DNA of 64,000 nt from Telopea speciosissima (taxonomy: Eukaryota; Streptophyta; Magnoliopsida; Proteales; Proteaceae). The position numbers and the translations under genes were made by a program. The DNA lies in assembly GCF_018873765.1 (NCBI RefSeq), contig NC_057923.1:59142593-59206592 (forward strand), written 5' to 3'. Below are positions 2,461-54,644 of this stretch, one piece after another. A model generated the notes under the pieces. The model worked only from the letters and a program-made list of their open reading frames with translations, ran no database searches and was not told where the DNA came from. Position 1 is the stretch's first letter. Every line of letters starts with the position of its first letter.

Positions 2461-3539
2461 CTCTCTCTCACATGGTTTTAAGAATAAGTATTTGATCGGG
2501 TGTATTGGCCTATTTGTACCGATATTAGGCATGCCCAATTCCAATTCTGATACAAATTGGTGATCTTGGGACAATTAGACATATTTGAGGGCAAAATCAT
2601 CCAATTCAGCCAATGTTGGTATTGGTCTAGCATAACATTATTGGAATTACATTTTTTTTTTAGGACATATCCCTAAGAGTGAAATGCCCTTGCATTTTTG
2701 AAAAAAAAAACAAAAAACCTGAAAACAAAAATGGACAAATGGATCAAAAAGTGCTCCAATGGTTCACCATGAAAAGGAATCCACATCTTTGTAGGAAAAT
2801 TTCTCACTCCTTTCTAACATTAACCATAGAAATGTAGAAGAAATGGTCTCAATAAAATATTACTATGAAATTAAGGGTGTCAATTGTACATAAAAAATGT
2901 TTATCGAATCCAAAAACATACTTCCATTTTGGGGGATTTTAAAAAAACAAAAAAATAAAAGGGTCAATATAAGTCAGAACTCAAAAGCAGTCAGGCCAGG
3001 TAGGCCCATCATAAAAAAGCAATTCACATCTTCTTTCACATTTATTTCTCACATGTTGTTACCACTGGAATCCTGCTTGATGACGTGGAGATCTGCAAAA
3101 GGTAGAAGGGCAATGAAGAGACCCGGAGTGGACTCCGAGGGAAGATTTTTCGATGCCAAAGTCAATTCGGCAGAACAGTAAGTAGAGGAAGTACGAAAGA
3201 GCTACAGTCAGTAATGGTGAGATGCCTTACCTGGATCCATTCGCTTACTGTTTATAGGAGGGGAGTCCTCCAAGGCGGTTGTACTTCCGTAGTTTACTGT
3301 CACTGGGAGTCTCCTGAGGTTGCGTCGGAGTGGGACTGTTCCTCCTCCTTTGTGAGCAATCTTCAACAGATAGGGGTTATCTGTCGGTTACTTGGATAGG
3401 GATTAGAGTCCCTTTACCTTATACGGCAAGATAGTGACATCATCGTCGTTATCTGCTTTGTCATTAATGGCGTCGTTATCCACGTGTCTTTATGTCATTG
3501 GTCGGGATCCGTTTGCCCCTATCACATGTCATCTCTCAT

Positions 3540-4060
3540 TTACAAAACATCACCTGCAAACCATCTTCTACTTGGAGTTTCTTTCTACAATTGAAGAAAG
3601 AGGAGGACAAACATCTCAGCAGAAGCCATTGGTTTTGGACTTTATTGCTCTTTCTTACGGTTATCAGGTTAAGTATTTCATGCAACCATTCTTACAACTT
3701 GGGGTTTTTTCTTCTTGTTCGATCTTCTGTTTTTTTTTGTTTTTTTGTTTTTTTTAATAATCTCTGTTCCATATTTATTGCTTTATATTTATCATTCTCA
3801 ATTTTTCTTTATTAGAGTGGAGTGTCAAAGGAAGGACAACATCTCAGAAGCAAGTGTTTTTATTTTTTATTTTTTGGAGGGTTTTATTGCTCCTTTCCTT
3901 AGCCAGGTAAATCATCCATATATCCTTAAAGCTTAGAGCCTCTAGCTTCTTTTTCTTGTGCTTCTAATTTTTCAAACTATTTTTTTTTTTTATTATTCAT
4001 AATATTTCAGTATTAGAGATTTCTGAATTACAAGTAATGTAAGTGTTGGGAGAAAACCTT
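3540..4060 (+). repeat. Leader-exon-like repeat units (array A0)
   Basis: Two exon-like cores resemble the units of the larger arrays at 7680-8748 and 12292-13690. One begins around 3590 and ends at a CAG|GTTAAG site near 3668. The next follows a TTTATTAG acceptor-like site near 3815, contains AGGAAGGACAACATCTCAGA, and ends at CCAG|GTAAAT near 3906. A third, diverged element lies around 4010 (TATTAG|AGATTTCTG). The core contains stop codons in all frames and is taken as non-coding. Confidence 0.6.
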
Positions 4061-7640: not shown

Positions 7641-7650
7641 TCACATGTAT

Positions 7651-7658
7651 TTATAAAA
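7651..7658 (+). promoter_or_regulatory. Candidate TATA box of an NLR leader
   Basis: TTATAAAA lies about 45 nt upstream of the first leader-exon-like core. The arrangement recurs at 39603-39610 (TTATAAAT). Both are followed by a CATGC(A/C)ACCCATC stretch and then (A/T)GAAGTTTCATTC. That conservation across diverged copies suggests a real transcription start region, but no transcript evidence exists here. Confidence 0.35.
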
Positions 7659-7679
7659 CGTTATCATGCAACCCATCCA

Positions 7680-8748
7680 CTTGAAGTTTCATTCTGCAGT
7701 TGAGAGAAAAGACATCATCTCTGAAGCTAGGGTTTTGGGGCTTTATGACTTCTCGTTATTGGGTTAACTATTTCATGCATACATTTTTTTTTTTTTGGGG
7801 AATTGGGAGCTTATATATATTTGGGGGCAGGGGGTGGGGGAAGGCCCAAGGAGAGTTGATCTTATGACCTCTTACTTTTGGGGTGTTGGTCTTTGCCAAC
7901 TGAGCAACCCCCTAGGGGTCATGCATCCATTCTTGCAACTTGGGTCTTCTACTTGTTATTCTTCTGCTTTAGTCTTTTAACCTCTATTTAATGTTCACTG
8001 TTTCATATTTATTATTGTCAACTTTTCTTTATGGGAGTGTTAAGAGGAGGGGGGAAAAAATAAGTCTGAAGCAAGTGTTTATTTTATTTCTATTTCATGG
8101 TCACTGCTTCATATTTATATTATCAATTTTTTTTTATTAGAGTGTTGAAAGGAAGGACAAAATCTCAGGACCAATTTTTTTTTAGGTCTTATTGCTCCCT
8201 CTTCCCAAAATCAATTAAGTTTGATGCACGTATTATTAAAGTTTAGGGAGCTCTTATTCTCTCCTCTTGTTCTTCCCATTTTCTCTTTTAATCAATATAT
8301 CAAGTTAACTACTTCATATTTTCATCAAAAAAAAAAAGTTACCTACTTCATATTTATTATTCCAAATTTTTTATTAAATTAGACTGTTGAGTGGAAGGAT
8401 AGCATCTCAAAAGCAAGTGTTTGTTTGTTTTTAGTGTTCCCTCTTCCATAATCAGGTATGTATCATGCACAATAATTACAGTCGAGGGGACTGGTTTCTT
8501 CCTATTTTTCTTTCAATCTTTATTTTATTTTCACTACTTCATATTCATCATTCTCAGTTTTTTCTTGTATGGTGTTGGGAGGAAAGACAACATTTCAGAA
8601 GTAAGTGTTATTGGGGTTTTATTGCTTTTTCTTACCATAATCTGATAAGTGTCATGCATCTTTTCTCAAAGGCTGGGGCCTCTTGCTTCTTCCCGTTATT
8701 CTTCTGTTTTTTTTTTCATTTAGTTTCTATTTCATGTTCATTGCATCA
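7680..8748 (+). repeat. Tandem leader-exon-like array (A1)
   Basis: About five diverged units are present, with cores near 7690, 8035, 8155, 8385 and 8575. Each has an AG-ending pyrimidine tract, then a GTTGAGAGGAAGGAC-like core with a CTCAGAAGCAAGTG word, then a TCAG|GTAAGT-like edge followed by ATCATGCAT. The array is interrupted at 8749 by the Gypsy-type element and continues at 12292. Confidence 0.65.
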
Positions 8749-12291: not shown

Positions 12292-13690
12292 ATCATATTA
12301 ATCATTCTCATTTTTTCTGAATAATAATATCTCAAAAGTAAGTGCTTTTTAGTTTCATTGGTCCTACCCATAATAAAATAAGTATCACGCATTCATCCTT
12401 AAAACATAGGGTCCCTGGTTTCTTCCTTCATTTCTTCTCTTTTTTAATTTTCTAGGTCTCTATTTCTTGTTCATTGAACATATTTATCATTGTCAACTTT
12501 TCTTCATTTGAGTTTTTCAGAGGAAGGACAACATCTCAAGAGCAAGTCTTTTTAAGGTTTTATTGTTCCTTTGTTCCCATTATCTGGTAACTATCATGCA
12601 TCTATTTTTAATCTCCATTCCATGTTCACTACTTCGTATTTATCATTCTTAATGTTTCTTTATTAGATTGTTGAGAGGAAGGACAGCATCTCAGAAACAA
12701 GTGTTTTATGGGATTTATTGCATCTTCTTCCTATAATAAGGTAAGTTTCATGCAAGAATTCATAAAGCTTAGGGACTTTGGCTACTTCTTCTTGTTCTTT
12801 TGCTTTTTTGTCCTCCTCTTCATCTCTATTTCATATTCACTGCTTCATATATATCATTCTCATTTTTTATTTTTTTTTTAGTTTTGAGAGGAAGGACAAT
12901 ATCTCAGGAGCAAGTGATTTTGGGTTTTAGTTCCCCTTTTTCCTATAATCGGGTAAATATCATGCATCTATTCTTAATGCTACTTAAGGACCTTAGCTTC
13001 TTCCTCTTGTTCTTCTGGTTTTTTCCTTTTAATATCTATTTCATGTTCACTACTTCATATTTATCATTCTTAATTTTTCTTTATTTGAGTATTGAGAAGA
13101 AGGACAATATCTTAGGAGCAAGTCTCTTTTTGTATTTTAGTGCTCCTCATAATTAGGTAAATATCATGAATCCATTCATAAAGTTTAGAGCCCTAGTTTC
13201 TTCTTATTGTTATCTTGGTTTTCTTCTTTAAGCTTTATTTCATGTTCACTACTTATTTATCATTCTCAAATTTTTTTTAATAGAATGCTGAGAGAAAGGA
13301 AGACATCTCAGAAACATGTATTTTTGGGGTTTTAGAGCTCCTTCTCCCCATAATCAAGTAAGTATATATCGTGCATCTATGCTTAAAAGGAAGGATAACA
13401 ACTCAGAAGCAATTTTTTCTGGACTAAATTAATTGCTCCTTCCTGTAAACGGGTAAGTGTCGTGCAGCTATTCTTAAAGATTAGGGGCTTTGGCTACTTC
13501 TTGTTGTTCTTTTGATATATATATTTTTTTTCTTTTATTTTCTCTTTCGTGGTTACTATTTCATATTTATAATTCTTAAATTCTTTCTTTATTACAGTAT
13601 TGAGAGGGAAGATATATAGCAGCTCAGAAGCAAGTGTTTTTTTTTTTTTTTGGGTTTCGTTGCTCCTTCTTCGTCTAATCAAGTAAGTAT
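12292..13690 (+). repeat. Tandem leader-exon-like array (A2)
   Basis: At least six well-formed units plus a degenerate first one. Exon-like cores, bounded by AG on the left and GT on the right, are at 12521-12585, 12667-12740, 12882-12952, 13090-13156, 13284-13357 and 13598-13682 (65-85 nt each). Three have a GTAAGT donor; most are followed by ATCATGCATC-like sequence. The intervals between cores are pyrimidine-rich and end in TTTCTTTATTAG-like acceptors. Core lengths are not multiples of three and contain stops, so they are non-coding. The final donor (13683) faces an acceptor at 14035-14036 just before the NLR start. Confidence 0.75.
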
Positions 13691-13940
13691 CTTGCATCTA
13701 TTTCTTAAAGCTTAGCGACCTTAATTGACTTCTTCCTCTTGTTCTTTTGGGAGTAAATAGTTTTCATTGTAAAAGATGTGATTAAAAGAAAAGTTTATAA
13801 AGAAAGAAGCAGAAACAGCAAATCGAAAACTATACAAATAGCCAAAATTATGCATATAGGATCTATTTCCTAGTTAGGGGCACCCAAAAATTTGATGTTT
13901 CATGGGTGTCGGTGTTGTTCACATCTTCATTATCTATTTA

Positions 13941-13973: not shown

Positions 13974-14050
13974 CATCATTTCAATTATTAATTCCCTAGA
14001 ATGAATTAATTGGTGTTGAAATCATATGGCGCGCAGGTGAAAATTCGTTG

Positions 14051-14677
14051 ATGGATTCCATTGGACAAATAATAGTAGCCATCGGACAAACTTTTTGGGT
14101 CCCGTTTGGACGTCAAATCAGCTACGTCAAAAACATTGAAAAAAAATCAGAGAAGCTGAAAGAGAAAGCGATTGAACTCTGTAACAAAAGGGAGGATATA
14201 AACAGAGACACCATATCAACAATGCCGACAAATGAATGCCAAGCTTGGCTTCGGAAGGTTGGACAGATGGAAGATAACATCAAAGCCATAGAAGCAGAGA
14301 TCCAACAAATAAGCGTTGCTGCATTTGTGAAATTGCCGTTTGATGTTGCTCTTTTCCCAAAATTGAAGACTCTCTATCTTAGTGACTTTCCCAGACTAGA
14401 AAGGATTTGGAAAACAGTTTCTTTTCATCCAATCATGGCGCCATCCTTAGAAACGATATCAGTTATGAGTTGTCAAAATCTGAAGAGTCTGGACCCTTTG
14501 AGTTTGGGGATGATTCAGCAGCAGCAGCAAAATGGATCATTATCTACATCCAGCAGAACTACTACTCTAATAAGAAGGATTGAGGGCTCAACCCAATGGT
14601 GGGAATCATTGGAATGGGAACATGATGAGATCAAACAACTACTCCAACCTTTTTTCGTGGCTGAAAGATTGAACTAA
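14051..14677 (+). CDS. Internally deleted CC-NLR: coiled coil joined to LRR end
   Basis: The open frame encodes 208 aa and begins at the same ATG as the intact paralogues, 14 nt after an acceptor-like AG (14035-14036). Residues 1 to about 85 are the CC domain (QISYVKNIE and ECQAWLRKVGQME match the intact genes). The rest, from VALFPKLKTLYL, is the last LRR and the C-terminal WWESLEWEHDEI tail. The whole NB-ARC and nearly all LRRs are missing. The join contains a short NB-ARC scrap (KLPFD) between two deletion points at about 14326 and 14341-14345, and one A has been lost near 14310 (CAACAAATAAGC against CAACAAAATAAGC). Despite three lesions the frame stays open to the normal C terminus. It could be a non-functional derivative or a truncated CC-containing protein able to pair with full-length NLRs; the sequence alone cannot decide. 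Confidence 0.7.
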   Translation: MDSIGQIIVAIGQTFWVPFGRQISYVKNIEKKSEKLKEKAIELCNKREDINRDTISTMPTNECQAWLRKVGQMEDNIKAIEAEIQQISVAAFVKLPFDVALFPKLKTLYLSDFPRLERIWKTVSFHPIMAPSLETISVMSCQNLKSLDPLSLGMIQQQQQNGSLSTSSRTTTLIRRIEGSTQWWESLEWEHDEIKQLLQPFFVAERLN

Positions 14678-15374: not shown

Positions 15375-15840
15375 TGCCGACGGTAGAAATAGAGTTTCGT
15401 AACCAAATATGATTTTCGATGACGGTTAGTTTATTACCGTCGCCCTATATAATTTGGGCGGCGGTGTATAATTTTCCGTCGTGAAAAATATAATAGAACG
15501 ACGGTTTATATTTATTCGTCGGTAAAAATAAAATTAAGCGACGGTTTATAATTTTTTGTAGCAAAATATAATATTGGGCGACGGTTTACATTTAACCGTC
15601 GGCGAAAATGGAATTGGGGCGACGTTCACGGATTAACCGTCGTCGAAAATATAATGGGGGCAACGTTTTATAACTATTCGTCGTTGAAATTGAATTTGGG
15701 CGACGCTTTATACCTATCCATCGTTGAAAATACCTTACCAAAAAAAAAAATCGTTGAAAATAAATTTTGGACGACGTTTTTTAGTTATCCGTCTTGAAAA
15801 ATAGAATTTAGGCGACGGTTGGATTCTTACCGTCGTCGAG
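15375..15840. repeat. Left subterminal GACGGT/ACCGTC repeats of the CACTA
   Basis: A run of alternating GGCGACGGTT and ACCGTCG words is spaced by roughly 25-35 bp AT-rich filler. It is matched by a mirror array at the right end. In CACTA elements such arrays are known transposase-binding regions; binding here is inferred. Confidence 0.8.
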
Positions 15841-20385: not shown

Positions 20386-20815
20386 TTTTTGGCGACGGTA
20401 AACATATGACCGTCGCTAAAGATTCATTTTTACCGACGGTTATTTAAATGTTCGGCATATAAATTAGATTTTTCCTGACGGTATACCAAAGACCGTCGCC
20501 TAATATTTACATTTATAGTGACGATTAAAACCGTCGTAAAACATAAATTTTTAGCGACGGAAAAGTATGTGTCGCCAAAAATATATTTTTAGCGACAGAA
20601 ACACTAAACGTCGCCAAAAATATATTTTTAGCGACGGAAACGTAAAGCGTCGCCAAAAATAATTTTGCTAGACGGGAGCAGTTTTACCGTCGTTATTTTT
20701 CCCGACATCACTTTAGCCGATGGACTGGCGATGGTTAAAATTACCGTCGCCAATATTTTTAGCGACAGAAAACTATTTTTGGCGACGGTTTATTACCGTC
20801 GCGAAAAATCATATT
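20386..20815. repeat. Right subterminal GACGGT/ACCGTC repeats of the CACTA
   Basis: Alternating GGCGACGGT and ACCGTCGC words plus three near-identical TATTTTTAGCGAC units around 20578-20650 mirror the left array. Confidence 0.8.
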
Positions 20816-22259: not shown

Positions 22260-23865
22260 GAGTAATTATTGACGAGGATCAGTATCATTAAGCTAAAATA
22301 TTTGGTATCAACCAAAGCATGGTTTGAGGTATCAATATTGGATCCCCCGATACGATTGATACTGCACGATTGTGAAGGTAACTGATACCGATACTTGGCC
22401 AATACCGTATCAGTGGATTGGTACAAACAAGGGGTAAAATAGTCAAGAAAACACATTTGAATGAAACCTAGGGATAAACTTGTCCGATACGATCGATCCA
22501 ATGCCAATACTATATCGGTATCATATTGCTTTTGAAGACGATCAATACCTGATCTGATACCGTGCACTAAAACCATGATCCAAAGAGCGAGGTGGAGTTG
22601 TATATATATATAAAATTTATTTTTTTAATCATAAAAAGGTTTTCATATAAGGGGGAGGAGGATAAGAAGAACAGATTCCCTTATCAATAGCTTTGGCTGT
22701 GTGAGGTTAGTGTTGAATGCCGGAGATCTTAACAGGTGAACCGGAAGTGAAACTATTGACAAAACCGTATTGGATTCTTTCTCTTTTCTTCTCACTTTTT
22801 AAGAAATAAAATCGGTGTTGGAATCTGTCTTTAATGATTTCGATCCCATTACGATACCAATTCCAATGCCGATTCAGATTGATTATAATAATTACCCGAT
22901 TCTGAACAAATGATCCAAAATTAATAAATAAATTAATTGGGATTTCTTCTTCTTCTTGTTCTTTTGATTTTTTTTTCTTTTAATCTCTTACTATTTCACA
23001 TTAATTTATCATTCTCTTTTTTTTTTCTTTCTCTTGGAGTGTTGAAAGGAAGGACAAATTCTTAGAAGCTAGTGTTTTTTGGGTTTTATTGATCGATCCT
23101 TTCCATAATCAGGTAAATCATTTATCCGGCCATCCTTAAACCTTAAAGGCTCTAGCTTCTTCTTTTTGTTCGATCTAGTGATTTCTTTGAACTATTTTTT
23201 AACTATCTATTCTTAATATTTCATTATTAGAAATTTCTGAATTGCGAGTAGTGCAAGTGTTTGGAGAAGAAACCTTCACTTTGGAAACCATTCTTGATAT
23301 CCAATAGTGAAAATTCCACAATCCAAGAAAACCCTTTATGTAGCTTATTATCTTTATATTTTAGAGTTTATGAGTTGAGATAGCTAATCACAGTTCAAAA
23401 CGATGATCTAATTCATATATAATTGACAGCACCAGCTAAAGAACAAAGAAAGGAGCAGAAATAACAACTTGAAAAGCAAATAGAATATGGAATCAAACAT
23501 TAAAAAATTTTAAATGTACAATTTTAAAAAATTGAAAAGTGTTCCAATGTTTACTTTTTTTTTTTGTTTTTATGGAATCAAACATTAGAAAATTTTTCAA
23601 CATGTAAAATTTTTTAGGTAAGATTTTTACGTTGAAACAAACAGAACCTTTAGAGTAATTATTGACGAGAATTAGTATCATTAAGCTGGAATATTTGGTA
23701 TTAATCAAAGCATGGTTTGAGGTATCGGTATCAGATCCCCCCGATACGACCGATACTGCATGGTTTTGAAGTTGACCAATACCGATACTTGGCCAATACT
23801 GTATCACTGGATTGGTACAAACAATAGGTAAAATTGTCAAGAAAACCCATTTGAATGAACCCATC
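22260..23865. repeat. Start of duplicated block B with degenerate repeats
   Basis: 22260-22760 pairs with 180-760. A second related copy of the same degenerate repeat lies at 23640-23870. A leader-exon-like unit is visible around 23030-23115 (AGTGTTGAAAGGAAGGACAA ... TCAG|GTAAAT). No gene was seen. Confidence 0.55.
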
Positions 23866-24399: not shown

Positions 24400-24900
24400 C
24401 AGGTCATCTCTCTTTTACAAAACATCACCTGCAAACCGTCTCTTACTTGGAGTTTCTTTCTACAGTTGAAGAAAGAGGAGGACAAACATCTCAGCAGAAA
24501 CCATTGTTTTTGGACTTTATTGCTCTTTCTTACGGTTATCAGGTTAAGTATAACTTGGGGTTTCTTCTTCTTGTTCGATCTTCTGTTTTTTTTTTTTTTT
24601 TTAATAATCTCTGTTCCATGTTTATTGCTTTATATTTATTATTCACAATTTTTCTTCACTAGAGTGTCAAAGGGATGCACAGTATCTCAGAAGCAAGTGT
24701 TTTTTTTTTTTGTTTTTTTGTTTGGGGGCGGGGGGGGGGGGGGTGGGAGAGTGATTTAACCAGGTAAATCGTCCATCTATTCTTAAAGCTTAGAGCCTCT
24801 AGCTTCTTCTTCTTGTTTTTCTAAAATTTTCAAACTATTTTTATTTTTATATTCATAATATTTCAGTATTAGAGATTTCTAAATTACAAGTAATGTATTA
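24400..24900 (+). repeat. Leader-exon-like units (array B0)
   Basis: This pairs with 3540-4060. The core near 24460-24541 ends TCAG|GTTAAG. A second core starts after a TTCACTAG site near 24661, contains ATCTCAGAAGCAAGTG and ends CCAG|GTAAAT near 24764. A G-run at 24730-24743 lies inside the second unit. Confidence 0.55.
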
Positions 24901-28773: not shown

Positions 28774-30040
28774 ATTATATCAATCATTCTCATTTTTTTT
28801 GAATAATAATATCTCAAAAGTAAGTGCTTTTTGGGTTTCACCGGTCCTACCCATAATAAAATAAGTATCATGCATTCATTCTTAAAACTTAGGGTCCCTG
28901 ATTTCTTCCTCCATTTTTTCTCTTTTTTAAGTTTCTAGGTCTCTATTTCTTCTTCACTAAACATATTTATCATTGTCAACATTTCTTCATTTGAGTTTTT
29001 CAGAGTAAGGACAACATCTCAAGAGCAAGTCTTTTTCAGGTTTGATTGTTTCTACGTTCCCATTATCAGGTAACAGTATCATGCATCTATTTTTAATCTC
29101 CATTACATGTTCTTTACTTTGTATTTTTCTTAATATTTCTTTATTAGATTGTTGAGAGGAAGGACAACATCTCAGAAACAAGTGTTTTATGGGATTTATT
29201 GCTTCTTCTTCCCATAATTAGGTAAGTGTCATGCAAAATTTCATAAAGCTTAGGGACTTTGGCTTCTTCCTGTTGCTCTTTTGGTTTTCTTCTCCTCTTC
29301 ATCTTTATTTCATATTCACTGTTTCATATATATCATTCTCAAATTTTCTTTATTATAGTTTTGAGAGGAAGGACAATATCTCAAGAGCAAGTGATTTTTG
29401 GGGCTTTAGTTCTCCTTTTTCCTATAATTGGGTAAATATCATGCATCTATATATTCTTAATGCTACTTAAGGACCTTCACTTCTTCCTCTTATTGTTTTG
29501 GTTGTTTCTTTTAATATCTATTTCATATTCATCGCATAAGCAAGTTTTTTTTGTTTTTTTTTTGGGGGGTTTTAGAGCTCCTTCTCCCCATAATCAAGTA
29601 AGTATCATGCATCTATTCTAATAGATTGGGTCCTGACTTCTTCTTTTTGTTCTTATGGTTTTCTCTTTTAATATATATTTCATTTATCACTACTACTATC
29701 TATTTACCATTATCATTTTTTTTCTTCCAATTAGAGTGTTAAGAGGAAGGATAACAACTCAGAAGCAATTTTTTTTGGACTTAATTTAGTTGCTCCTTCC
29801 CGTAAACGGGCAAGTGTCATGCATGTATTCTTAAAGATTAGGAGCCTTGGCTACCTCTTGTTGTTCTTCTAATTATTATTTTTTTATTCTCTCTTTCGTA
29901 TTTACTGTTTCATATTTATCATTCTCAATTATTTATTTATTTATTATTATTATTATAGTGCTGATCGAGAGGAAGGACGACATTTTAGAAGCAAGTGTTG
30001 TTTGGGTTTCATTGCTCCTTCTTCCTCTAATCAGGTATGT
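28774..30040 (+). repeat. Tandem leader-exon-like array (B)
   Basis: About seven units pair one-to-one with array A2, except that the unit matching 13090-13156 is lost. Cores lie near 28805, 29003-29070, 29149-29221, 29360-29430, 29545-29598, 29739-29810 and 29961-30034. Right edges include TTAG|GTAAGT, TCAA|GTAAGT and TCAG|GTATGT. The last donor precedes an acceptor-like TTGCAG at 30389-30394 just upstream of the NLR start. Confidence 0.7.
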
Positions 30041-30162
30041 ATCATGCATATATCTATTTCTTAAAGCTAGCTTAGTGGCCTTGGCTTCTTCTTCTTGTTC
30101 TACTGTGGATAAATAATTAGATTAATTTCATTGTAAAAGATGTAATAAAGAAATTATAACAA

Positions 30163-30192: not shown

Positions 30193-30409
30193 AACAAAAA
30201 AATTAAAGAAGCTGAAACTGCAAATCGAAAAATATATACAAACAACAAAAAATAAAATTATGTTGGAATGGGGTTTGGTTATATTGTTCTATTTAAAGCA
30301 TGTGTAAAACTTATGCAGAATGTACGTGGTATGAGCATTTTATCTTTTTCAATTGCTAATTCACTGAGAAATTGTGTTGAAATCATAATTGCAGGTGAAA
30401 AAGTCATCA

Positions 30410-33400
30410 ATGGCTTCAATTGGACATATACTAGTCGGAATTGGGCAACCAATAGCAGCCATTGGACAATGTTTATGGGTCCCTCTCAGACGTCAAATTA
30501 GCTACGTCAAAAATCTTGAAAAAAATTTTGAGAAGCTGGAAGGAAAAGCGAAAGATCTGTATAGCAAAAGGGAGGATGTAAACAGAGAGATAAACAGAGA
30601 TACCATATCAAAAATGCCAACAGATGAATGTCAAGATTGGCTTGGGAAGGTGGGAGAGACGGAAAATAAAATCAAAGCCATAGAAGCAGAGTTCCAACAA
30701 AATAAGCGTTGCTGCATTGGTGGATTGTGCCCCTACATTTGGTGGCGAAAGAAACTGGGTAAAAAAATTGTGAAAATGATAGATGATGAGATTGTTGATC
30801 TCTTCAAGGACCACGACTCAATGTTTTCAGCTGGAAAAAGGTATGTGGTTGAGCGACCTCCACTGCCAGTTGAACCCATTCCTGCACCAGCAGCTATGGA
30901 AGGCCACAATAATAATACATCATCACCAATTGATCGTACTGTCCAGAAGATATTAAGTTGCATAAGGGATGATGATGATAGGCATAAAATTGGGTTATGG
31001 GGTATGGGCGGAATTGGGAAGACCGTTACAATGAAGGTCCTACACAATTCACCCGAATTAACAGCTATGTTCCAAATGGTTATTTGGGTAACTGTGTCCA
31101 AAGATGGAGGAAGAGGAGAAAAAATAATTAGAAAGGTACAAAAGGATATTCTTAAGCGTCTAAAATTGCAGTTTGATGATGATGATGAGTCTGTTGAAAG
31201 AAACGCCAGCAGAATATTTCAAGGATTGAGAAATATGAAGTATTTGCTGCTTCTAGATGACTTGTGGGAAACATTGGATTTGGAAATCATAGGAATCCCC
31301 AACCCAAGCAGAGAAAATGGATGCAAAATGATAATAACGACTCGGTCCATGGTTGTCTGTAACAAAATGGAGATTGATAAGACAATTAAAGTTGAAGTCT
31401 TATCTAAAGAGGAGGCGTGGAATTTGTTTCGGAAAAAGGTTGGTGACGTTGTGGATTCATCAGAGGATATAAAAGAAATAGCTGCACAGGTCGTTGGAGA
31501 ATGTCGAGGTTTGCCACTTGCCATTATTGCAATTGGAGGGTGCTTAAGAGATAAGAATGGGGTAAGTGAATGGAGAAATGCATTGAAGGAGTTGAGATCA
31601 AATAAGTACGAAATTATTGATGAGATGGAAGAATCTGTGTTTAAGATATTGAAGTTCAGTTACGACCAAATAAAAAGTAACAATATCAAGAACTGCTTTT
31701 TATACTGTGCTTTATACCCGGAGGACTATGGGATTCCAGTAAAAGAAGTTGTACGACGTTGGTTGGCAGAGGGTTTCATTGATGATGATGGTCGTTATTT
31801 TTCAAGGTTGGATGATGCATGTGATAGAGGGCATGCTATAATAAATTACCTAAAAGATGTTTCATTGTTGGAAGATGGCAACGACTCATGGAGTCGGTAT
31901 GTCAAGATGCATGACGTGATTAGAGATTTGGCATTAATGATCACTTCATCATCAGCATCATCATCATCATCATCATCATCATTATTGTCTGCTCATCATC
32001 AGATGGTGTTGCAAGAAGAGGATGTTAATAATCGGTTCTTGGTTAGGACAAATATGGGAATAAAGGAGCTCTCAACTGAGGAAGAATATTATTGGAGACA
32101 GTCCCAGAGGATCTCATTGATGCGTAATGAAATTGGCAATCTACCTGAGAACCCCAGATCCCTCTCACTTGTGACGTTATTTTTGCAGGAGAATTATGGA
32201 AGCTTGACTAGAATTCCAGAATCATTCTTCGAGCATATGCACAATCTTCGAGTTTTGGACCTGTCACACACTGATATCAAGGAGTTACCATCTTCTGTTT
32301 CCAATTTAGTAAGCCTTCGAGGATTATATCTCCTTGAGTGTCGTTATTTGGTTACTCTGCCATCCCAAATAGGGAATCTGAAAAAACTTCAAGTGCTTCA
32401 CTTAGGATGCAGCTATGGCAAGTTTGAGTACTTACCTATTGAAATTCAGCAGCTTACGCTCCTTAGAAGTCTGCAAGTGAAAACTGGAGGGATGGTGGTT
32501 CCTAATGGGATTATATCAACCCTCTCTCTGCTTGAAAACTTGAGCCTACGTGTGCCTGATCATTCTCCAAAGTATGAAGAAAGCATTGTGGAAGAGGTGG
32601 GTAGCTTAAAGCAACTAACTCAACTTGAGTTTCAGTTTGGAACATTGGAAAGTTTTGAGCATTTTGTACGTGAAAGTTATCCATGGAAAAATCAAAGCTT
32701 GAAATCATTTCAGTTCACTTTGAATTGCAGCAATGAAGAAGAAAGAGCATCATTCTCAATTTATAAGCCATATTTACAACTGGTGGGAGATAATTACACA
32801 CCCAGCAACACTGCAATTGCAGAGGTACTCCATCGGGCCAATGGTTTCGGTTTAGTAAGCAATCACACTAATTGTCAAGGGCTGTTGGATTTTGGCTTGA
32901 AGAACTTGAGTCAGCTGAAAGAATGTTATGTTCGTGAATGCAAGATGATGGAGATCATCATCAACATCAATAATGGAAATCATTATGATTTAAGTGCTAC
33001 TTCTTCAACAACAACTCCTCCATGTGCAGTTTTACCAAACTTGGAATACTTGGAAGTTAGTGATATGCCAACTACGAGAGCCATTTGGGAAGGGCCAATG
33101 CCACCAGGAAGCTTCAGTCGTTTATCAAGTTTAATTATCTGTGATTGTGCAAACCTGAGAAATATTTTCACATGGGGCATACTCCAACAACTTTCAAACC
33201 TTGAAAGACTTGAAGTCTCGCGCTGTGATACCATCCAAGTAATAATAGTGAATGAAGAAGAAGAAAAAGGTCATGATAATGATGATGATGATGATGTTGT
33301 TCTTCTCCCAAAATTGAAGTATCTCTATCTTGAGGGACTAGACAAACTAGAAAGGATTTGGAAAACAGTTTCTTTTCATCCCATCATGGCGCCATCCTTA

Positions 33401-33679
33401 GAAACGCTAGCAGTTGTCTGGTGTCCAGATCTGAAGAGTCTGCTCCCTCTGAGTTTGGGGGTCTCAACATCCAGCAGTACTACTACTACTACTCTAAGGA
33501 GTATTGAGGGCCATACCAAATGGTGGGAAGCATTGGAATGGGAACATGATGGGATCAAACAACAACTCCAACCTCTTTTCGTTGAAAGGCTCGATCCTTG
33601 GGAGACACTTTTGAGTTCAGGGGAGGGGAGAGTTATTACCCAATACCCAGGGGAGGGGTTTGTCATTCGGGCATCATAG
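30410..33679 (+). CDS. CC-NB-ARC-LRR immune receptor (CNL), intact
   Basis: An intracellular NLR receptor of the RPS2/RPS5-like CNL class, single coding exon, 1,089 aa. I chose the ATG at 30410; the frame is open upstream only to a TTG within a TTGCAG acceptor-like site. CC domain about residues 1-120. NB-ARC: P-loop GMGGIGKT at 198-205, RNBS-A VIWVTVSK, kinase-2 LLLLDDLWE at about 279-287, RNBS-B CKMIITTRS at about 305-313, GLPLA at 367-371, RNBS-D CFLYCALYPED at 429-439, and a canonical MHD at 500-502 (codons 31907-31915). A Ser run follows the MHD region, coded by a TCA microsatellite (31945-31983). LRRs start around residue 570 (SLSLVTLFLQ) and run to the end. In plants such proteins bind ADP/ATP through NB-ARC and trigger cell death on effector detection. 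Oddities are V after GKT where most NLRs have T, and a C-terminal tail derived from a transposon end (33615 onward). Confidence 0.92.
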   Translation: MASIGHILVGIGQPIAAIGQCLWVPLRRQISYVKNLEKNFEKLEGKAKDLYSKREDVNREINRDTISKMPTDECQDWLGKVGETENKIKAIEAEFQQNKRCCIGGLCPYIWWRKKLGKKIVKMIDDEIVDLFKDHDSMFSAGKRYVVERPPLPVEPIPAPAAMEGHNNNTSSPIDRTVQKILSCIRDDDDRHKIGLWGMGGIGKTVTMKVLHNSPELTAMFQMVIWVTVSKDGGRGEKIIRKVQKDILKRLKLQFDDDDESVERNASRIFQGLRNMKYLLLLDDLWETLDLEIIGIPNPSRENGCKMIITTRSMVVCNKMEIDKTIKVEVLSKEEAWNLFRKKVGDVVDSSEDIKEIAAQVVGECRGLPLAIIAIGGCLRDKNGVSEWRNALKELRSNKYEIIDEMEESVFKILKFSYDQIKSNNIKNCFLYCALYPEDYGIPVKEVVRRWLAEGFIDDDGRYFSRLDDACDRGHAIINYLKDVSLLEDGNDSWSRYVKMHDVIRDLALMITSSSASSSSSSSSLLSAHHQMVLQEEDVNNRFLVRTNMGIKELSTEEEYYWRQSQRISLMRNEIGNLPENPRSLSLVTLFLQENYGSLTRIPESFFEHMHNLRVLDLSHTDIKELPSSVSNLVSLRGLYLLECRYLVTLPSQIGNLKKLQVLHLGCSYGKFEYLPIEIQQLTLLRSLQVKTGGMVVPNGIISTLSLLENLSLRVPDHSPKYEESIVEEVGSLKQLTQLEFQFGTLESFEHFVRESYPWKNQSLKSFQFTLNCSNEEERASFSIYKPYLQLVGDNYTPSNTAIAEVLHRANGFGLVSNHTNCQGLLDFGLKNLSQLKECYVRECKMMEIIININNGNHYDLSATSSTTTPPCAVLPNLEYLEVSDMPTTRAIWEGPMPPGSFSRLSSLIICDCANLRNIFTWGILQQLSNLERLEVSRCDTIQVIIVNEEEEKGHDNDDDDDVVLLPKLKYLYLEGLDKLERIWKTVSFHPIMAPSLETLAVVWCPDLKSLLPLSLGVSTSSSTTTTTLRSIEGHTKWWEALEWEHDGIKQQLQPLFVERLDPWETLLSSGEGRVITQYPGEGFVIRAS

Positions 33680-36059: not shown

Positions 36060-36285
36060 GTTAAAAAAGCACAGGAGGTTTTCAATGAAATGAAAAAGAG
36101 AAGATTTACACCCGACCTCAGGACTTACACGATTCTCTTGGAGGGTTAGGGCCAAGAACAAAATGAGGTCAAGCTGAAAGAAGTATATACGAAGATGGGA
36201 GATGAAGAGTTGAGTTGAAACCTGAAGTTGTCTCTTATGGGATTATCATCAATGCTTTCTGTAAGATGAGGAAATACAATGAATT
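36060..36285 (+). pseudogene. PPR (pentatricopeptide repeat) gene fragment
   Basis: Conceptual translation gives AQEVFNEMKKRRFTPDLRTY then TILLEG, a stop, GQEQNEVKLKEVY, and later GIIINAFCKMRKYNELQ. This is the classic PPR helix pair pattern (A..VF.EM...G..PD..TYT.LL.G). Stops and a frame change make it a pseudogene. Its last motif is the part that has been tandemly amplified downstream. Confidence 0.7.
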
Positions 36286-37296
36286 GCAGCTCTGCCGTTT
36301 GAACAACATTCTAAACACTTAGAACAGAGGCAATCATGGCGGAGGCGATGGAAGAGGATAGATAGATATGGGTGTTTTAGGTTGAAGAGGAATAAAGGGT
36401 AGCTTTTATTTATGATGTTTTAGCACAAGGGTAAAATAATCTTTTCCAAACTAAAACTAACAGCAGGCTAACACCATCAGCCAAAGGAGGTCTAGGTGTA
36501 ATTGAGGAAAATTCAGGGAAAGAATGTGGAATTAGACCATAGTACAAGATAGGGGCCTGCATGCTAATATGAGAGATGAAGAGTTGAATTGATTTGTCAC
36601 CTATGAGATTATCATCAATGCTTTCTGTAAGCTGAGGAAATACAATGAATTGCAGTACTGCCGTTTGAACATTGTAAACACTCAGTGCAGAGGCAGTGGC
36701 GATAGCAATATTGGAAAAGGAAAGATAGATATGGGTGTTTTAGGTTGAAGATGAATGAAGGTAGCATTATACTTTTATTTTTGATGTTTTAGCACAAGGG
36801 TAAAATAATCTTTTCCAAACTAAAACTAACAGCAGCAGACTAACACCATCAGCCAAAGGAGGTCTACGTGTAATTGGGGAAAATCCAGGGAAAGAATGTG
36901 GAATTAGGCCATAGTACAAGGGAGGGCCATGCATGCCAATATGAGAGATGAAGAGTTGAATTGAAACCTGACGTTGTCACCTAGGAGATTATCATCAATG
37001 CTTTCTGTAAGTTGAGGAAATACAATGAATTGCAGCTCTGCCGTTTGAACATTGTAAACACTAAGAGCAGAGGCAGTGGTGGAAGAGGAAAGATAGATAT
37101 GGGTGTTTTAGGTTGAAGATGAATATATGGTAGCATGTATTTCTGATGTTTTAGTACAAGGGTAAAATAGTTTTTTCCAAACTAAAACTAGGCTAACACC
37201 ATCAGCCAAAGGGGGTCTAGGTGTAATTAGGGAAAATCCAAGGAAAAAATGTATAATTAAGCCATAATACAGGGGAGGGGCATGTATGCCAATATA
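36199..37296 (+). repeat. Three-unit ~370-bp tandem repeat with PPR scrap
   Basis: Units start at GAGATGAAGAGTTGA: 36199, 36573 and 36945 (spacing 374 and 372), the last ending about 37296. Each contains the PPR-derived ATTATCATCAATGCTTTCTG, a GATAGATATGGGTGTTTTAG block and the ACACCATCAGCCAAAG block. Units differ by small indels and substitutions. Confidence 0.85.
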
Positions 37297-39600
37297 TTGA
37301 CACTTGAACAATATAATGTTTCTAAATATCCAAATCCAACAATGTGACTGTTTTCCGTGTGTAAATCTTACTCAAAAGTTGACCAAACAAAAAATCCAAC
37401 CCATCTTTCCACTGCACTTGCATTTTTTGAAAAAAATAAAAAAAGTTAAAATGAATGTTCAATGAATCAAATGCAGCCGCCATGGCCCACAAGAAGCAAT
37501 CACAAGAAATTTCATTTCCTTGTGCAGTTTTAAGGGGAGGGGAGGGGAGGGGAGGACATCATCTTAGAAGCCAGTGTTTTTGGGTTTTATTGCTCTTCTC
37601 CCCGTCATCTCGTCAGTCGTCAGGTTATGTGTTTCACTTGCAACTTGGGGCTTCTTCTTTATGTTCTTTCTGGTTTTTTCTTTTAATCTCTATTTCTTGT
37701 ACATTACTTCACATTTGTCATTCTTAATTTTTCTTTATTAGAGTGTTGAAAGAAAGGTCAGCATCTCAGAAGCAGAAGCAAGTGCTTTTTTCTGTTTTGT
37801 TTTTGTATTGGGTTTCATTGGTCCTTTCCATAATCAGGTAAATCATTCATTCATCCTTAAAGCTTAGGGGCTCTAGCTTCTTCTTGTTCTTTTCTGATTT
37901 CTTCGAAGTATCCTTTTCATTTTCATTGCTTTATTTTGATTATTCTAAATATTTTCATTATTAGAGATTTCTGAATTGCAAGAAGTGTAAGCGTTGGGAG
38001 AAGAAAGCCACTTTGAAATAAGTGGTCAATCTAAACCATTCCTTGGATAGCCAACAGTGGAGATCCCCACATCATCTTTCCATATGGCACAACTAGGTAT
38101 GCATCCAAGAAAACCTTTACTTTATAATCATTTATATTTTATAAGTTTGAGTTGAGAGAGCTAATCACAGTCTGAAACAATGATTCAATTCATATTTGGA
38201 TAGTAACCAACCAAGATCACTTATAGATCGTTTCACATAAGCTAGGTTCATGGAAGTCATTCTAGTTATAGTTTTGATGATACAAGGCTGGTATCAATTG
38301 CAAAAATATGGAATGGTTCAACATCAATTGGGGGGGGGGGGGGCTAATTTCAGTTTTGCCTTGAATTTGAATTTCTAAGATAGGGATGCCTTGAATTAGA
38401 TAATATATCAAGTTCAGTTTACACTATGTGGCCTGAAATGCAAATCCAAACAGCACATCTCATCAATGATCCTTTGATCTCTATATGCAAGAGGTTCCTC
38501 TGCCTACCTACATGGGCAATGTATTTTTCAAATTAAATTTTTTTTTTGGCCCCATTTACAGAATCAGATAGGGAAAGTAATTAGCCTAACAAATTCCCGC
38601 CCCTTGACGCAAATGGGAGGAACTACAAGTGGCAAGTTGTGGCAAGGGATTCCCAGTCTTTTGGATTTTCACACATGTACAATGATCTTGTCCATGTGAA
38701 AATACATCCACCAACCGTGTTGCAGTCTTCTATCAAGTTTTCTTTTTTCACGGATAAGTAACTAGATTTCATTGTAAAAGATGTAAAAAAGAAATATTTT
38801 ACAAACCAACGAGCCAAGAACAAAGAAAGAAGTAGAAACAACAACTTGAAAACTATACTAGAAGCAGCAAAATCAAACTATGTTGGAATGGGATATTCTC
38901 CCATGTAAATATCATCTCTCTTGTACCAACCTTTGCTAGTTCATCAGCTGTAGAGTTAGACGATCTTGGACAGGAGTAGAACAAGGTGTCCAAGGCTACC
39001 TTTCTTACTCTTACACATTGAATTAGACTTCAAAGTCTCCATAATCCTCTCATCTCACCCACCATCCATCTAATGCCAAGTTTTGAATCTTCCTCCTCAC
39101 TAATGATTCAGCCCCAATTAAAGGGCTCTTAGCTCAGATTTTGTTGTTTGCATGGGCTTTCACTGTCCCATCTGATCACTTTTGGTTCTGCTCCCTTATA
39201 AATACAAAATAGCCTTGAATTACAAGAAGTTGAAAAAAGGAAGACTCTTCTGGAGAGGGCTCATCATGGGCTTGCCCATTCAACTTTTATGCTTCAAAAT
39301 TGCACCATTTAGGCCTTACTTGATGATTTTCGGAAATAATCCTCTGTTCATGATATTTTTTTGCTCACGTTTTACTTTCAAAAAGCATGAAAAGACTTGT
39401 ACAAATGTAGGCTTGTAAATAATACATGGGATTTGATGTTATATGCACTATTCAAAGCATGTGAAAAACTTAAACTAGAATGTGGCATGAGCATATGATC
39501 TTTTTTCTGGCCTAGCCCGCAACCTTAATAGCCCAGCCAATGCCCTGAAATTTTTGGGTGGGCTCCAGCCAAGCTTGCAACCCTAGAATAGATGGCATCT
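37297..39600. other. Diverged NLR-unit spacer with two leader-exon-like units
   Basis: Leader-exon-like cores lie at about 37545-37624 (ends TCAG|GTTATG) and 37742-37837 (TTATTAG|AGTGTTGAAAG to TCAG|GTAAAT). The part around 38220-38300 is homologous to 5800-5870 and 26450-26520, showing that this is a third, older copy of the duplicated block. A G-run occupies 38330-38343. No gene was seen. Confidence 0.5.
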
Positions 39601-39602
39601 CT

Positions 39603-39610
39603 TTATAAAT
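39603..39610 (+). promoter_or_regulatory. Candidate TATA box of an NLR leader (copy C)
   Basis: TTATAAAT is followed by CATGCCACCCATC and GAAGTTTCATTC, paralleling 7651-7710. The inference rests only on this conservation. Confidence 0.35.
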
Positions 39611-39639
39611 CATCATCATGCCACCCATCTAAATGAAGT

Positions 39640-40060
39640 TTCATTCGGTAGTTGAGAGGAAGGACAGCAAATCAGAAGCTAGTGTTATAGGGGGCTTTAT
39701 TGCTCTTTCTTCCAATTATCAGCTTAAGTATGTTATGCATCCATTCTTATAACTTAGGGCTTCTTGTTCTTCTGGTTTCTAATATCTATTTCATGTTCAC
39801 TGCATAATATTTATCATTCTCACTTTTTCTTTATTAGAGTATTGAGAGGAAGGATAACATCTCAGAAGCAAGTGTTTTTTGGTTTTATTGTTCCCTCTCA
39901 CATAATCAGGTAAGTACTATGCATCTATTCTTTAAGCTTAGGGGCTCTTGCTTCTTATTGTTGTACTTCTAATTTCGTTGAACTATTTTATTTTTATTAT
40001 TCTCAATATTTCATTACTAAAGATTTCTGAATTGCAAGTAGTGCAAGTGTCGGGAGAAGA
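39640..40060 (+). repeat. Leader-exon-like units (array C)
   Basis: Cores lie at about 39652-39722 (right edge TCAG|CTTAAG, a damaged donor) and 39839-39908 (TTATTAG|AGTATTGAGAGG to TCAG|GTAAGT). A diverged third element follows at about 40016 (AAAGATTTCTGAATTGCAAG). Confidence 0.6.
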
Positions 40061-49238: not shown

Positions 49239-49379
49239 CTTCTGTTTCCCTTGTTATTTGGAGCACTATAATTTTTATGTTGCATAGGTGTTGGTGTAGT
49301 TCACAGCTTCATGTTCCCCCACCCCTTTCTTCATTTCAATTGTTTAGTCGCAAGATATGGTTGTGTTGAAAATTCATCA

Positions 49380-49490
49380 ATGGATTAAACTGGACAAAAA
49401 GTAGCCGCCATTGGGCAACCAATAATGGCTACTGGGCAATGTTCATGTGTCTCGCAAAGACATCAAATCAGCTACATCAAAGATCTTGAC
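49380..49490 (+). pseudogene. NLR N-terminal relic
   Basis: It reads ATG GAT TAA, then in frame TGQKVAAIGQPIMATGQ and HQISYIKDLD. This lines up with residues 1 to about 36 of the intact NLR at 30410 (ASIGHILVGIGQPIAAIGQ, QISYVKNLE). The third codon is a stop and homology ends by about 49490. The preceding leader (49270-49375) matches 13890-14036 and 51365-51492. Confidence 0.8.
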
Positions 49491-49944
49491 GTAGCTGATG
49501 AAATATTGGGGCTTTGTGGACCATATAACTCAGTGTCCCTAGTATGAGATGAAAACCAAATTTCCCCATTTGTGCATGGATGGCTGAAAAATATAAATGT
49601 AACATACATGGGACGTTATATGATTGAATTTGGATTTAACTGTGAACAATTCAAAACATTTTGTAGGTGTTTATGAGTCAGAATTGCCGTATCACCCTCT
49701 CATTTGGCACAACTAAGAATATTGCCAGAGGCGTATCCGCAGTGTGACTCTTTCATCTGTGTAAATCCCACCATTTCATTACCTTATAAGCATTAAAATA
49801 CATATATATCCCCAAAAGTTGCATGATATTAGCTTGCATTGTGGGGGGAAAGTGAAAATAAATGAACCATTACTTAAAACAGTTGCCATGGCCCTTGCCA
49901 GCCACCATCGAAAGGAATTCACATCTTTTGGAATTTCTTACTTC
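49491..49944. other. Spacer between NLR relic and array D
   Basis: AT-rich, no gene seen; the NLR body is absent here. Confidence 0.4.
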
Positions 49945-50640
49945 TTTCTTGAAAGTCTCTTTTTTGTATTTTAGTGCTCCTCATAATTAGGTAAATATCA
50001 TGAATCCATTCTTAAATCTTAGGGCCCTAGTCTCTTCTTGTTGTTTTCCTGGTTTCTTCTTTAAGCTCTATTTCATGTTCACTACTTATTTGTCATTCTC
50101 AAATTTTTTTTTATTAGAGTGCTGAGAGAAAGGAAGACATCTCAGAGCAAGTATTTTTTGGTTTTAGAGCTCCCTCTCCCCATAATCAAGTAAGTATCAT
50201 GCATCTAGTCTTATAGCTTGGGTCCCTGACTTCTTCCTTTTGTTCTAATGGTTTTCTCTTTTTATATATATTTCATTTTTCACTACTATATATTTATCAT
50301 TATCATTAATTTTTTTCAATTAGAGTATTAACAGGAAGGATAACAACTCAGAAGCAATTTTTTTGGACTTAATTAATTGCTTCTTCCCTTAAACGGGCAA
50401 GTGTCCTGCATCTTTTCTTAAAGATTAGGGGCTTTGGCCACTTCTTCTTGTTCTTCTAATTTTTTTTTTCTTTATTCTCTTTCGTCTTTCTATTCATATT
50501 TATAATTCTCAAATTCTTTCTTTATTAGATTGTTGAGAGGAAAGACAACATCTCAGAAGCAAGTGTTTTTTGGGATTCATTGCTCCTCCTTCCTCTAATC
50601 AGGAAGCATCACGTATCTATTTCTTAAAGCTTAGTGGCCT
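49945..50640 (+). repeat. Tandem leader-exon-like array (D)
   Basis: Four units correspond to the last four of array A2, with cores ending at about 49991 (TTAG|GTAAAT), 50190 (TCAA|GTAAGT) and 50398 (damaged). The last one is at about 50532-50602, where the donor has decayed to TCAGGAAGC. It lies 0.9 kb upstream of the intact NLR. Confidence 0.65.
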
Positions 50641-51506
50641 TGGCTTCTTCCTCTTGTTCTTCTGGGAATAATTAATTGGCTTTCATTGTAAAAAATGTAA
50701 AAGAAAAATGTATAACAAAGCAGGTAGCTAAGAATAAAGAAAGAAGCAGAAACAGCAAATCGAAAACTATACAAATAGCCAAAATCAAATTACATTGGAA
50801 TGGGGGTACTGTCCCATGTGAGAATCATTACTCTAGCACCTACCTTTGCAAGTTCATCAGCTGTGGAGTCCAACGATCTTGGACGCCAGTAGAACATGGT
50901 GTTCAATGCTGCCATCCTCGCTCTCACACATCATATTAGATTCAAAAGTCTCCAGTGTTCTCTCATCTTGGCCTCCATCCATCTAATGCCAACTTTTGAA
51001 TTTTCCTCCCCCAATATTGTTTCAGTCACAAAAGCTCTTGTGCAGATCCAGCCCTCAATAAAAAGTTTCTTAGCTCAGCTCCTGCATGTAGAGTGCATTA
51101 TTTCATCTCACCATCTGATCACTTTTATTTCTGTTCCATATAAATACATAATAGCCTTGAACTACTACGGCATGGAAAAGAAACTCTGCTGGTAGAGGGC
51201 TCATTTTGGGTTTCTCATTCTTTTAAGTGATGATTTTCAGAAGGATCCTTTGTTCATGCTTTTCAAGCATGAAAAGGCTTATACATGGGATTTGATGTTA
51301 TATGCTCTATTCAAAAAGCATGTTTAAAACTTATGCAGAATGTGGCATCTTTTTCCTAGTTATGGGCACCCAAAAATTTTATGTTGCATGGGTGTTGGTG
51401 TTGTTCACATCTTCACTAGCCCCCTCTCTCCCTTTCATCATTTCAATTGTTAATTGCCTAGAATTAATTGGTGTTGAAATCATGGCGCGCAGGTGAAAAT
51501 TCGTTG
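50641..51506 (+). other. Leader region of the downstream NLR
   Basis: It is homologous to 13750-14050 in its last 150 nt. An acceptor-like GCGCGCAG ends at 51492, 14 nt before the NLR ATG. The ORFs 50676-51195 and 51302-51496 are not conserved in the other copies. Confidence 0.4.
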
Positions 51507-54500: not shown

Positions 54501-54644
54501 GGGATGATTCAGCAGCGATCCAGTAGTACTACTTTAAGGATGATTAAGGGAGAAACCCAATGGTGGGAAGCATTGGAATGGGAACATGATCATGAGATCA
54601 AACCACTACTCCAACCTCTTTTTGTGCACTCATCACGGCTGTAA
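51507..54644 (+). CDS. CC-NB-ARC-LRR immune receptor (CNL), intact, MRD variant
   Basis: A paralogue of the gene at 30410, single coding exon, 1,045 aa. The ATG at 51507 (MDFIGQSIWVPFRRQISYV) is preferred. The frame is open 39 nt further up to a TTG, but a splice-acceptor-like GCGCGCAG lies between. CC about 1-110; Asn run (AAT microsatellite) near 150-156. P-loop GMGGVGKTTS at 184-193, kinase-2 LLLLDDLWE at 261-269, RNBS-B CKMIITTRS, GLPLA at 350-354, RNBS-D CFLYCALYPED at 412-422. The ARC2 MHD motif reads MRD (483-485; Arg codon 52956-52958), unlike the paralogue. LRRs start about residue 555 (SLLLVTLFLQ) and end with HSSRL. In known NLRs the MHD His contacts ADP and its loss often causes autoactivity or marks helper or decoy types; which applies here is unknown. 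Confidence 0.92.
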   Translation: MDFIGQSIWVPFRRQISYVKNIEKNSEKLNEGAADLYDKREDINREINRDAISTMPTAECQAWLRKVGEMENKIKVIETEIQQNKHCCIGGLCPNIWWRRNLGKKIVTMMNDDIVDLFKDHTMFSGISRYVVERPPQSVEPIPAPAMEGHNNNNNNTSSSIGRTVQKILRCIRDDDIHKIGIWGMGGVGKTTSMKLLNNSTEIAGMFDMVIWVTVSKGGGIRKVQEDIIERLSLPFDDDEPVERTARKIFQRLSNNNMKYLLLLDDLWERMDLKDIGIPNPCEENGCKMIITTRSMVVCNKMEIDKAIKVEVLSEEEAWKLFRKKVGNVVDSSSEDIREIAAQVVGECKGLPLALIVIGGSLRNKSDLREWRNALKELRSNKYEIIDDMEESVFKILKFSYDQLKSNNIKNCFLYCALYPEDYEIREKELVQRWLAEGFIDDGGDLRLDEAYDKGHAILNYLKDVSLLEGVVVDPFGKLAVKMRDVIRDLALIITSASSLMSAKLLMVRHAVEEEEDGNHQFLVRTNIGGIQEELSISNEENWGQFQRISLMGNNKCRINLPENPTSLLLVTLFLQHNRRLTKIPESFFEHMHNLRVLDLSYTHIRELPSSVSNLVNLRGLFLLSCPYLVTVPSQIGNLKKLQVLHLGGRHLECLPIEIQQLTLLRSLQVSFYEIPSGNRRLMVPNGIISRLSLLENLSIRAYGGYSDFGESIVEEVGSLKQLTQLEVKFTTLESFEHFLRESYPWKNQSLKSFQFTLHCSNESGYSIFYYEEEEASSNKRFLQLVGGNYTPTAIAEVLRRANGFYLRNNHTCQGLLDFGLKNLTQLKRCYVSKCKMMEIIIINGNNDLSTTSTTTPCAVLPNLEYLQVEEMPTMTTIWEGPMPPGSFSRLAYLSISGCPNLREIFTRGILQQLSNLEQLVVKDCDTVQVIIVNEEEEAEGGHDDVALFPKLKNLTLEKLPRLERILKTVSFHPMAPSLEVIGVVGCPNLKSLLPLSLGMIQQRSSSTTLRMIKGETQWWEALEWEHDHEIKPLLQPLFVHSSRL

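Follow-up and report, generated by a model that had tools for sequence, protein, structure and literature searches.

A tandem array of units with splice-like edges stands upstream of every identified close copy of an NLR gene in Telopea speciosissima

On chromosome 8 of Telopea speciosissima, arrays of diverged, non-coding units with exon-like edges stand upstream of all eight identified close copies of an RPS2-like NLR gene. The feature is real and unusual. The reading we favor, to which we assign a probability of roughly 0.6, is that the units are inherited copies of a leader-exon segment that act, at most, as optional and partly decayed leader exons. Whatever splicing of the units, or effect on NLR output, is proposed below is a reading of the DNA sequence, wherein the evidence for splicing is mixed and present-day use of the units as spliced exons is possible.

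Results

Arrayed units carry acceptor- and donor-like edges

Searching with a profile built from one unit and later re-centred, nhmmer found 36 matches within the 64,000-nt stretch of DNA that was analysed (C8:59142593-59206592), hereafter called the window. Applied to the window together with seven related loci of chromosome 8 (L011-L017), the re-centred profile gave 89 matches, many of which cover only part of a unit. A unit is ~198 bp long, equal to the 198 columns of the model, and its core of ~73 nt occupies columns 63-135. Successive unit starts are ~150-230 bp apart, in good agreement with the original prediction that cores of 65-85 nt recur every 150-220 bp. The left edge of the core also is as had been described, a T-rich tract followed by AG, with AG present at columns 61-62 and/or 63-64 in 67 of the 73 units that have a letter in each of these four columns. 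Likewise, the right edge is donor-like, as GT is found in 66 of the 77 units in which both letters are present. Donor-like 9-mers (at most one mismatch) occur at 2.75 per kb inside window units versus 0.17 per kb outside, counts that are not independent because the units share descent.

Profile matches fall in every one of the eight stretches previously listed as arrays. One additional array site absent from that list lies at ~22939-23199, where a lone unit (22990-23171) has a partial neighbor at 22939-23016. Three arrays in the window, which like its other arrays, acceptor-like sites and NLR genes are on the forward strand, lead straight into an NLR start. The first (12293-13750) is an octamer of unit types T1-T8, with units at 12293, 12454, 12607, 12817, 13026, 13227, 13383 and 13533, and precedes a deleted NLR copy. 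The second (28776-30105) comprises T1, T2, T3, T4, T6, T7 and T8, without a separate match for T5, and precedes an NLR of 1089 aa. The third (49953-50665) is, by profile matches and unit types, a shortened array of T5-T8 before an NLR of 1045 aa. The claims that an array lies ahead of each NLR, and that the last unit always is followed by an acceptor and an NLR start codon, were not confirmed, as the arrays at 3590-3965, 7688-8706, 22990-23171, 24462-24822, 37522-38024 and 39640-39970 do not lead into an NLR in this way.

With the exception of the lone unit at 22990, these other arrays begin with a related first unit, termed U0. At 3532-3965 and 24407-24822, U0 carries TTTACAAA in place of a TATA box and is joined by one more unit, the latter array lying ~4 kb ahead of the array at 28776-30105. 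The U0 that opens the array at 7643-8706 has TATAAAA at position 7652 and a GT donor, and no NLR directly follows this array. At 37501-38024, U0 is without a TATA box, has a GT donor, and is followed by further units. Finally, the array at 39594-39970, ~10 kb ahead of that at 49953-50665, consists of a U0 with TATAAAT at 39604 and CTTAAG at the donor position, plus one unit with a GT donor. Such U0-type arrays that do not abut an NLR may form the distant leader part of the next NLR. The sequence at 38754-39281, after the array at 37501-38024, resembles the leader intron of the NLR at 51507, and thus this array probably is the leader of a lost copy. A 372-bp tandem repeat in three copies (36195-37295) lies just ahead of this leader remnant.

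Eight close NLR copies share the arrangement

Two NLR genes in the window are open, one encoding 1089 aa (30410-33676) and the other 1045 aa (51507-54641). Pfam identifies an NB-ARC domain, a winged helix and an RPS2-like LRR in both, with PF00931, PF23559 and PF23247 above the curated cut-offs in these two proteins, which are the two of the eight copies that were scanned. No coiled-coil match was listed by Pfam for either of them, and the "CC" in the label CNL used here is assumed by analogy with RPS2-like proteins in general. The third copy (14051-14674) has an open frame, wherein the CC start is fused to the LRR end. Residues ~10-97 are joined to residues ~962-1066, indicating an internal deletion.

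A search of the genome with the first 167 aa as query identified eight close copies, all on chromosome 8 near 41.4-41.5 and 59.1-59.9 Mb. Four are open (the two window genes, L011 and L013), with frames in this search that run to 1058-1100 aa, whereas the other four (window 14051, L014, L015 and L017) are broken or deleted. Among the remaining matches listed, which are the best candidates, none exceeds 30% identity to the NLR N-terminus, and a single-copy ancestor beside a more distant NLR was set aside on the basis of these candidates.

All eight copies, including the broken ones, carry the sequence CAG|GTG 14-18 nt ahead of the ATG, and all eight have an array upstream of this acceptor-like site. 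In the window, the CAG is located at 14034-14036 (14 nt ahead of the ATG at 14051), 30392-30394 (15 nt ahead of the ATG at 30410) and 51490-51492 (14 nt ahead of the ATG at 51507). A ninth array of the octamer type (L016 5684-8655) is followed by no NLR of this clade and is counted separately from the arrays before NLRs. Window positions 49392-49508 also encode a piece of an NLR N-terminus, covering residues 5-43 with 51% identity, that probably is the remnant of a lost NLR copy. Leader-like sequence is present at 49245-49371, and this ninth NLR start is without CAG|GTG.

The eight-unit block is old, and its units match by position

Units that cover at least 140 of the 198 columns (67 of the 89 matches, or 52 for T2-T8) were used to build a tree. 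Judged from leaf order, without support values, the units group by array position and not by locus. Of 63 units compared, 62 have as their closest counterpart a unit of the same type at a different locus, a statistic that is partly built in because the types were set by hand from the leaf order of the tree or, for short units absent from the tree, from their place in the array. The one unit that departs from this pattern, the third of L013, is nearest to the last unit of the array before the gene at 51507 and may be a chimera. Mean identity is 0.845 for the same unit type between loci versus 0.752 for different types within one locus.

The fact that units match by position across loci indicates that the eight-unit block, with its unit order, arose once, before the gene was duplicated. 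Arrays with fewer units, of which T5-T8 at 49953-50665 is an example, would seem to have lost some. Units are less alike within an array than at the same position between loci, which is not the pattern of a dynamic tandem repeat (VNTR). A recent variable-number repeat was rejected for this reason, and because TRF detects a single one of the listed arrays. The notion that the arrays vary freely in unit number likewise finds no support in the position-wise matches, which point to one old expansion. The ends of the block also are regular. In seven loci, T1 opens at model column 30 or 31 and is without the core start. Seven of the eight pre-NLR arrays have a last unit that reaches column 197-198, whereas in that of L013 it stops at column 193.

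Between close loci (L011/L014, L011/L017, L014/L017 and w14/L015), units differ by ~5-8% mismatches, and the leader introns of the same pairs align in patches with 75-95% identity, gaps included. Synonymous divergence among the open copies is 0.16-0.26, with two of these copies represented in part, by the 777 codons of L011 and the 486 of L013 that lie within the loci. Coding and array similarities are out of step between locus pairs, and this mosaic divergence suggests exchange between copies. Even if the block is inert, this positional orthology of its units makes it useful for tracing the order in which the NLRs were duplicated.

U0 resembles a first exon with a TATA-like promoter

A profile seeded with five of the final set located U0 at twelve places. 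Of the 16 matches shown, four with a start at model column 49-50 proved to be T units and are not counted here; two that were kept (L029 and window 37501) match only from column 38-39 onward. U0 is present upstream of eight of the nine octamer-type arrays, about 4-13 kb away, with its promoter part matched in seven. The U0 of L016 is without this part, and no U0 was found for L014 within the 20 kb fetched beyond the locus. At the TATA position, four of the twelve have exact TATAAA, four have TTTACAAA, a further two have near variants and the last two lack any such motif, and thus the box is altered or absent in eight. The GT donor is kept in nine of the twelve.

We infer that the clade had a first non-coding exon to which U0 corresponds, either directly or by descent. 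The presence of related U0 units 4-13 kb further upstream makes a duplicated 5′ leader exon the likely origin of the block. This part of the original prediction, descent from a non-coding leader exon, gains further from the exon-like composition of the core and from its slower substitution (ratio 0.75; see below), and we grade it as likely. The direction of change, with U0 first, and the site of transcription initiation also are presumed from the sequence arrangement. Indeed, the sequence directly before T1 is shared over ~84-140 bp in most of the pairs compared and over ~410 bp between the two window loci, such that transcription might also start near T1.

The core evolves mildly slower than the spacer when bases are matched

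The original prediction held that its exons would be at odds with equal divergence of core and spacer. In raw identity the two are indeed equal (0.846 for the core and 0.849 for the spacer, P 0.38), whereas they differ mildly when bases are matched, so that the outcome is intermediate. Among T2-T8 units, the core has undergone 226 steps versus 299 predicted from the spacer rate (ratio 0.75, permutation P 0.0035). The corresponding values for all 67 units are 318 versus 411 steps (0.77, P 0.0020), and edge columns were left out of both ratios. In a sliding control, the core window comes 13th among 198 when windows are ordered from the slowest. The slowest ones start at columns 59 and 67, and windows that start at columns 28-38 come close to them. 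The slow stretch therefore already begins ahead of the T-rich tract and extends across the core. Such an extent fits a past or present exon together with its acceptor signals, and uneven mutation or alignment in the T-rich spacers could produce it as well. Runs of deletions number 24 among 3796 core positions and 23 among ~5887 spacer positions; the core is thus not depleted of them, which argues against strong constraint on the core. Its T content is 33% versus 49% for the spacer, consistent with the exon-like composition noted above.

Functions of the core as a structured RNA were also considered. No Rfam family matches the window at the gathering score, and a known RNA gene was rejected accordingly. 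RNAalifold predicts not one consensus pair from 54 aligned cores. Single cores fold slightly better than their shuffles (mean z −1.04, with 12 of 54 below −2), and one unit examined individually folds no better than shuffles (z 0.87). A conserved core hairpin thus was set aside.

Most splice-like edges are retained, with losses in some units

The donor-like GT at the core edge is the best kept among nine consensus GTs. In T2-T8, the donor reads GT in 50 of 56 units and GC in two. By conservation in these units, its G comes first among 31 G columns, and its T ranks 27 among 78 T columns. When steps at both positions are counted on the tree, their number is not significantly low, either for all 67 units (P 0.136) or for T2-T8 (P 0.087). 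At the acceptor side, AG is absent from both places in six of 73 units, about as independence predicts. An AG lies within columns 61-65 in 52 of 56 T2-T8 units, and three of the other four rows stop there. For free mutation of the splice dinucleotides, the second pattern named as adverse to the original prediction, the outcome again is intermediate. GT and AG mostly are kept, and some units have lost them, even before an open NLR. Specifically, in the array before the open gene at 51507, unit 50259 (T7) has a GC donor, and unit 50477 (T8) has lost one donor base.

These data bear on the possibility that the arrays are inert fossils, wherein a tandem duplication hitch-hiked with NLR duplication and then decayed neutrally, and the splice-like edges merely record the chance content of the founder. 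Equal raw conservation of core and spacer, loss of GT or AG in some units, the unremarkable number of donor steps and the frequency of core deletions all are expected under this view, as is array divergence that is not clearly unlike that of the alignable leader intron. It is harder to reconcile with a base-matched core that is 25% slower, with a donor G that tops its column class, and with retention of the block in all eight close copies. On balance, we regard wholly neutral decay as rather unlikely, and favor inherited leader-exon copies that are partly decayed.

A second alternative, which is that of the original prediction, is that the arrays are functional tandem leader exons whose number varies the 5′ UTR and thereby tunes NLR output. 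Most units do have donor- and acceptor-like edges, and a leader-exon origin is in keeping with this proposal. Moreover, an ATG is present in 13 of 54 cores, and including such units in a transcript could add upstream ATGs. Against it, the fixed unit order and the old expansion mean that number is no live variable across most copies. Donors before open NLRs also have no extra protection, with GT retained in 19 of 23 units before open NLRs versus 26 of 28 before broken ones (P 0.39), a comparison tempered by the chance that the broken copies may be recent. Tuning by exon number thus appears unsupported by the sequence, and we consider it quite improbable.

Discussion

In the reading we favor, one RPS2-like CNL ancestor would have had a 5′ leader segment composed of U0, with its TATA-like promoter, and the start of an intron. 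This segment would have multiplied in tandem once to give the eight-unit block T1-T8, before the gene was duplicated into the two regions of chromosome 8, and the block would since have been copied along with the gene, with its unit order retained. Its place would be within the leader, with either a distant promoter-like U0 or a promoter immediately ahead of T1 on one side and the acceptor-like site 14-18 nt before the ATG on the other, and the primary transcript would pass through it. The spliceosome could then join the donor of U0 or that of any unit to the NLR acceptor, and no single unit would be required. A bolder version, which we view as unlikely, is that T1-T8 form a bank of alternative leader exons, wherein the choice of unit and not the number of units varies between transcripts. 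Units with an upstream ATG or weak splice sites would lower receptor output, and the block would be a splicing-based dosage buffer kept through duplication.

Tandem duplication of exons can give rise to cassette or mutually exclusive exons. The arrays resemble this process in that a putative exon and its flanking intron are repeated head to tail with splice-like edges, and differ from it in that the repeated putative exon is non-coding. Clusters of RPS2-like CNL genes are known to be copied as blocks in plant genomes. The loci described here share with such clusters the duplication of clustered NLRs, the presence of broken copies and mosaic divergence, but here the copied block carries an eight-unit leader array. 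The dosage of NLRs is under tight control, in which the part played by 5′ leaders has received little study. The presence of the leader block in all eight identified close copies allows the role of non-coding exon copies in receptor level to be tested.

Arabidopsis FWA is a gene with 5′ tandem repeats, and its first exons are non-coding and located in the repeats. In the published account (PMC2270340), the FWA repeats are SINE-related, lie in the promoter and start-site region, occur as two to four copies or two pairs, and have formed in four independent events in the genus, and their SINE-related region is methylated. The arrays in T. speciosissima likewise stand 5′ of a gene but have up to eight diverged units with exon-like edges. 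By this parallel, the units could be a regulatory or silencing repeat that acts at the DNA level, drawing methylation or small RNAs to the 5′ end of the gene, as at FWA. Different units of one locus are only ~75% identical, however, and for this reason they would be poor mutual targets of small RNAs, such that a silencing repeat seems very improbable indeed. A limited search of the open literature, covering titles and the openings of abstracts, returned no description of the arrangement reported here.

A relation of the unit to transposons was not found in the loci examined. A transposable element as carrier of the unit was considered for three loci on other chromosomes (L020, L021 and L022, on C7, C1 and C2) and rejected, as these are segmental duplicates wherein no mobile unit is apparent. 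Pattern matches at five further sites (L018 and L019 at C8:64.69 and 64.72 Mb, and L023-L025 at C2:68.1, C3:60.7 and C5:31.9 Mb) hold no unit by profile, and a sigma-70 promoter scan was discarded as inapplicable to plant DNA.

The three segmental duplicates, which were left out of the unit alignment, are 4-5 kb long and 92-94% identical to each other. Each has an array piece of ~320 bp (L020 1662-1981, L021 2204-2529 and L022 1832-2150) that is most like window positions 8127-8481 (80-83%). The frame ahead of this piece resembles, by eye only, the end of a C2-domain-type gene. Elsewhere in the window, ~40-bp tandem repeats with GCGACGG/CCGTCG-like motifs are present at 15458-15732 and 20528-20666.
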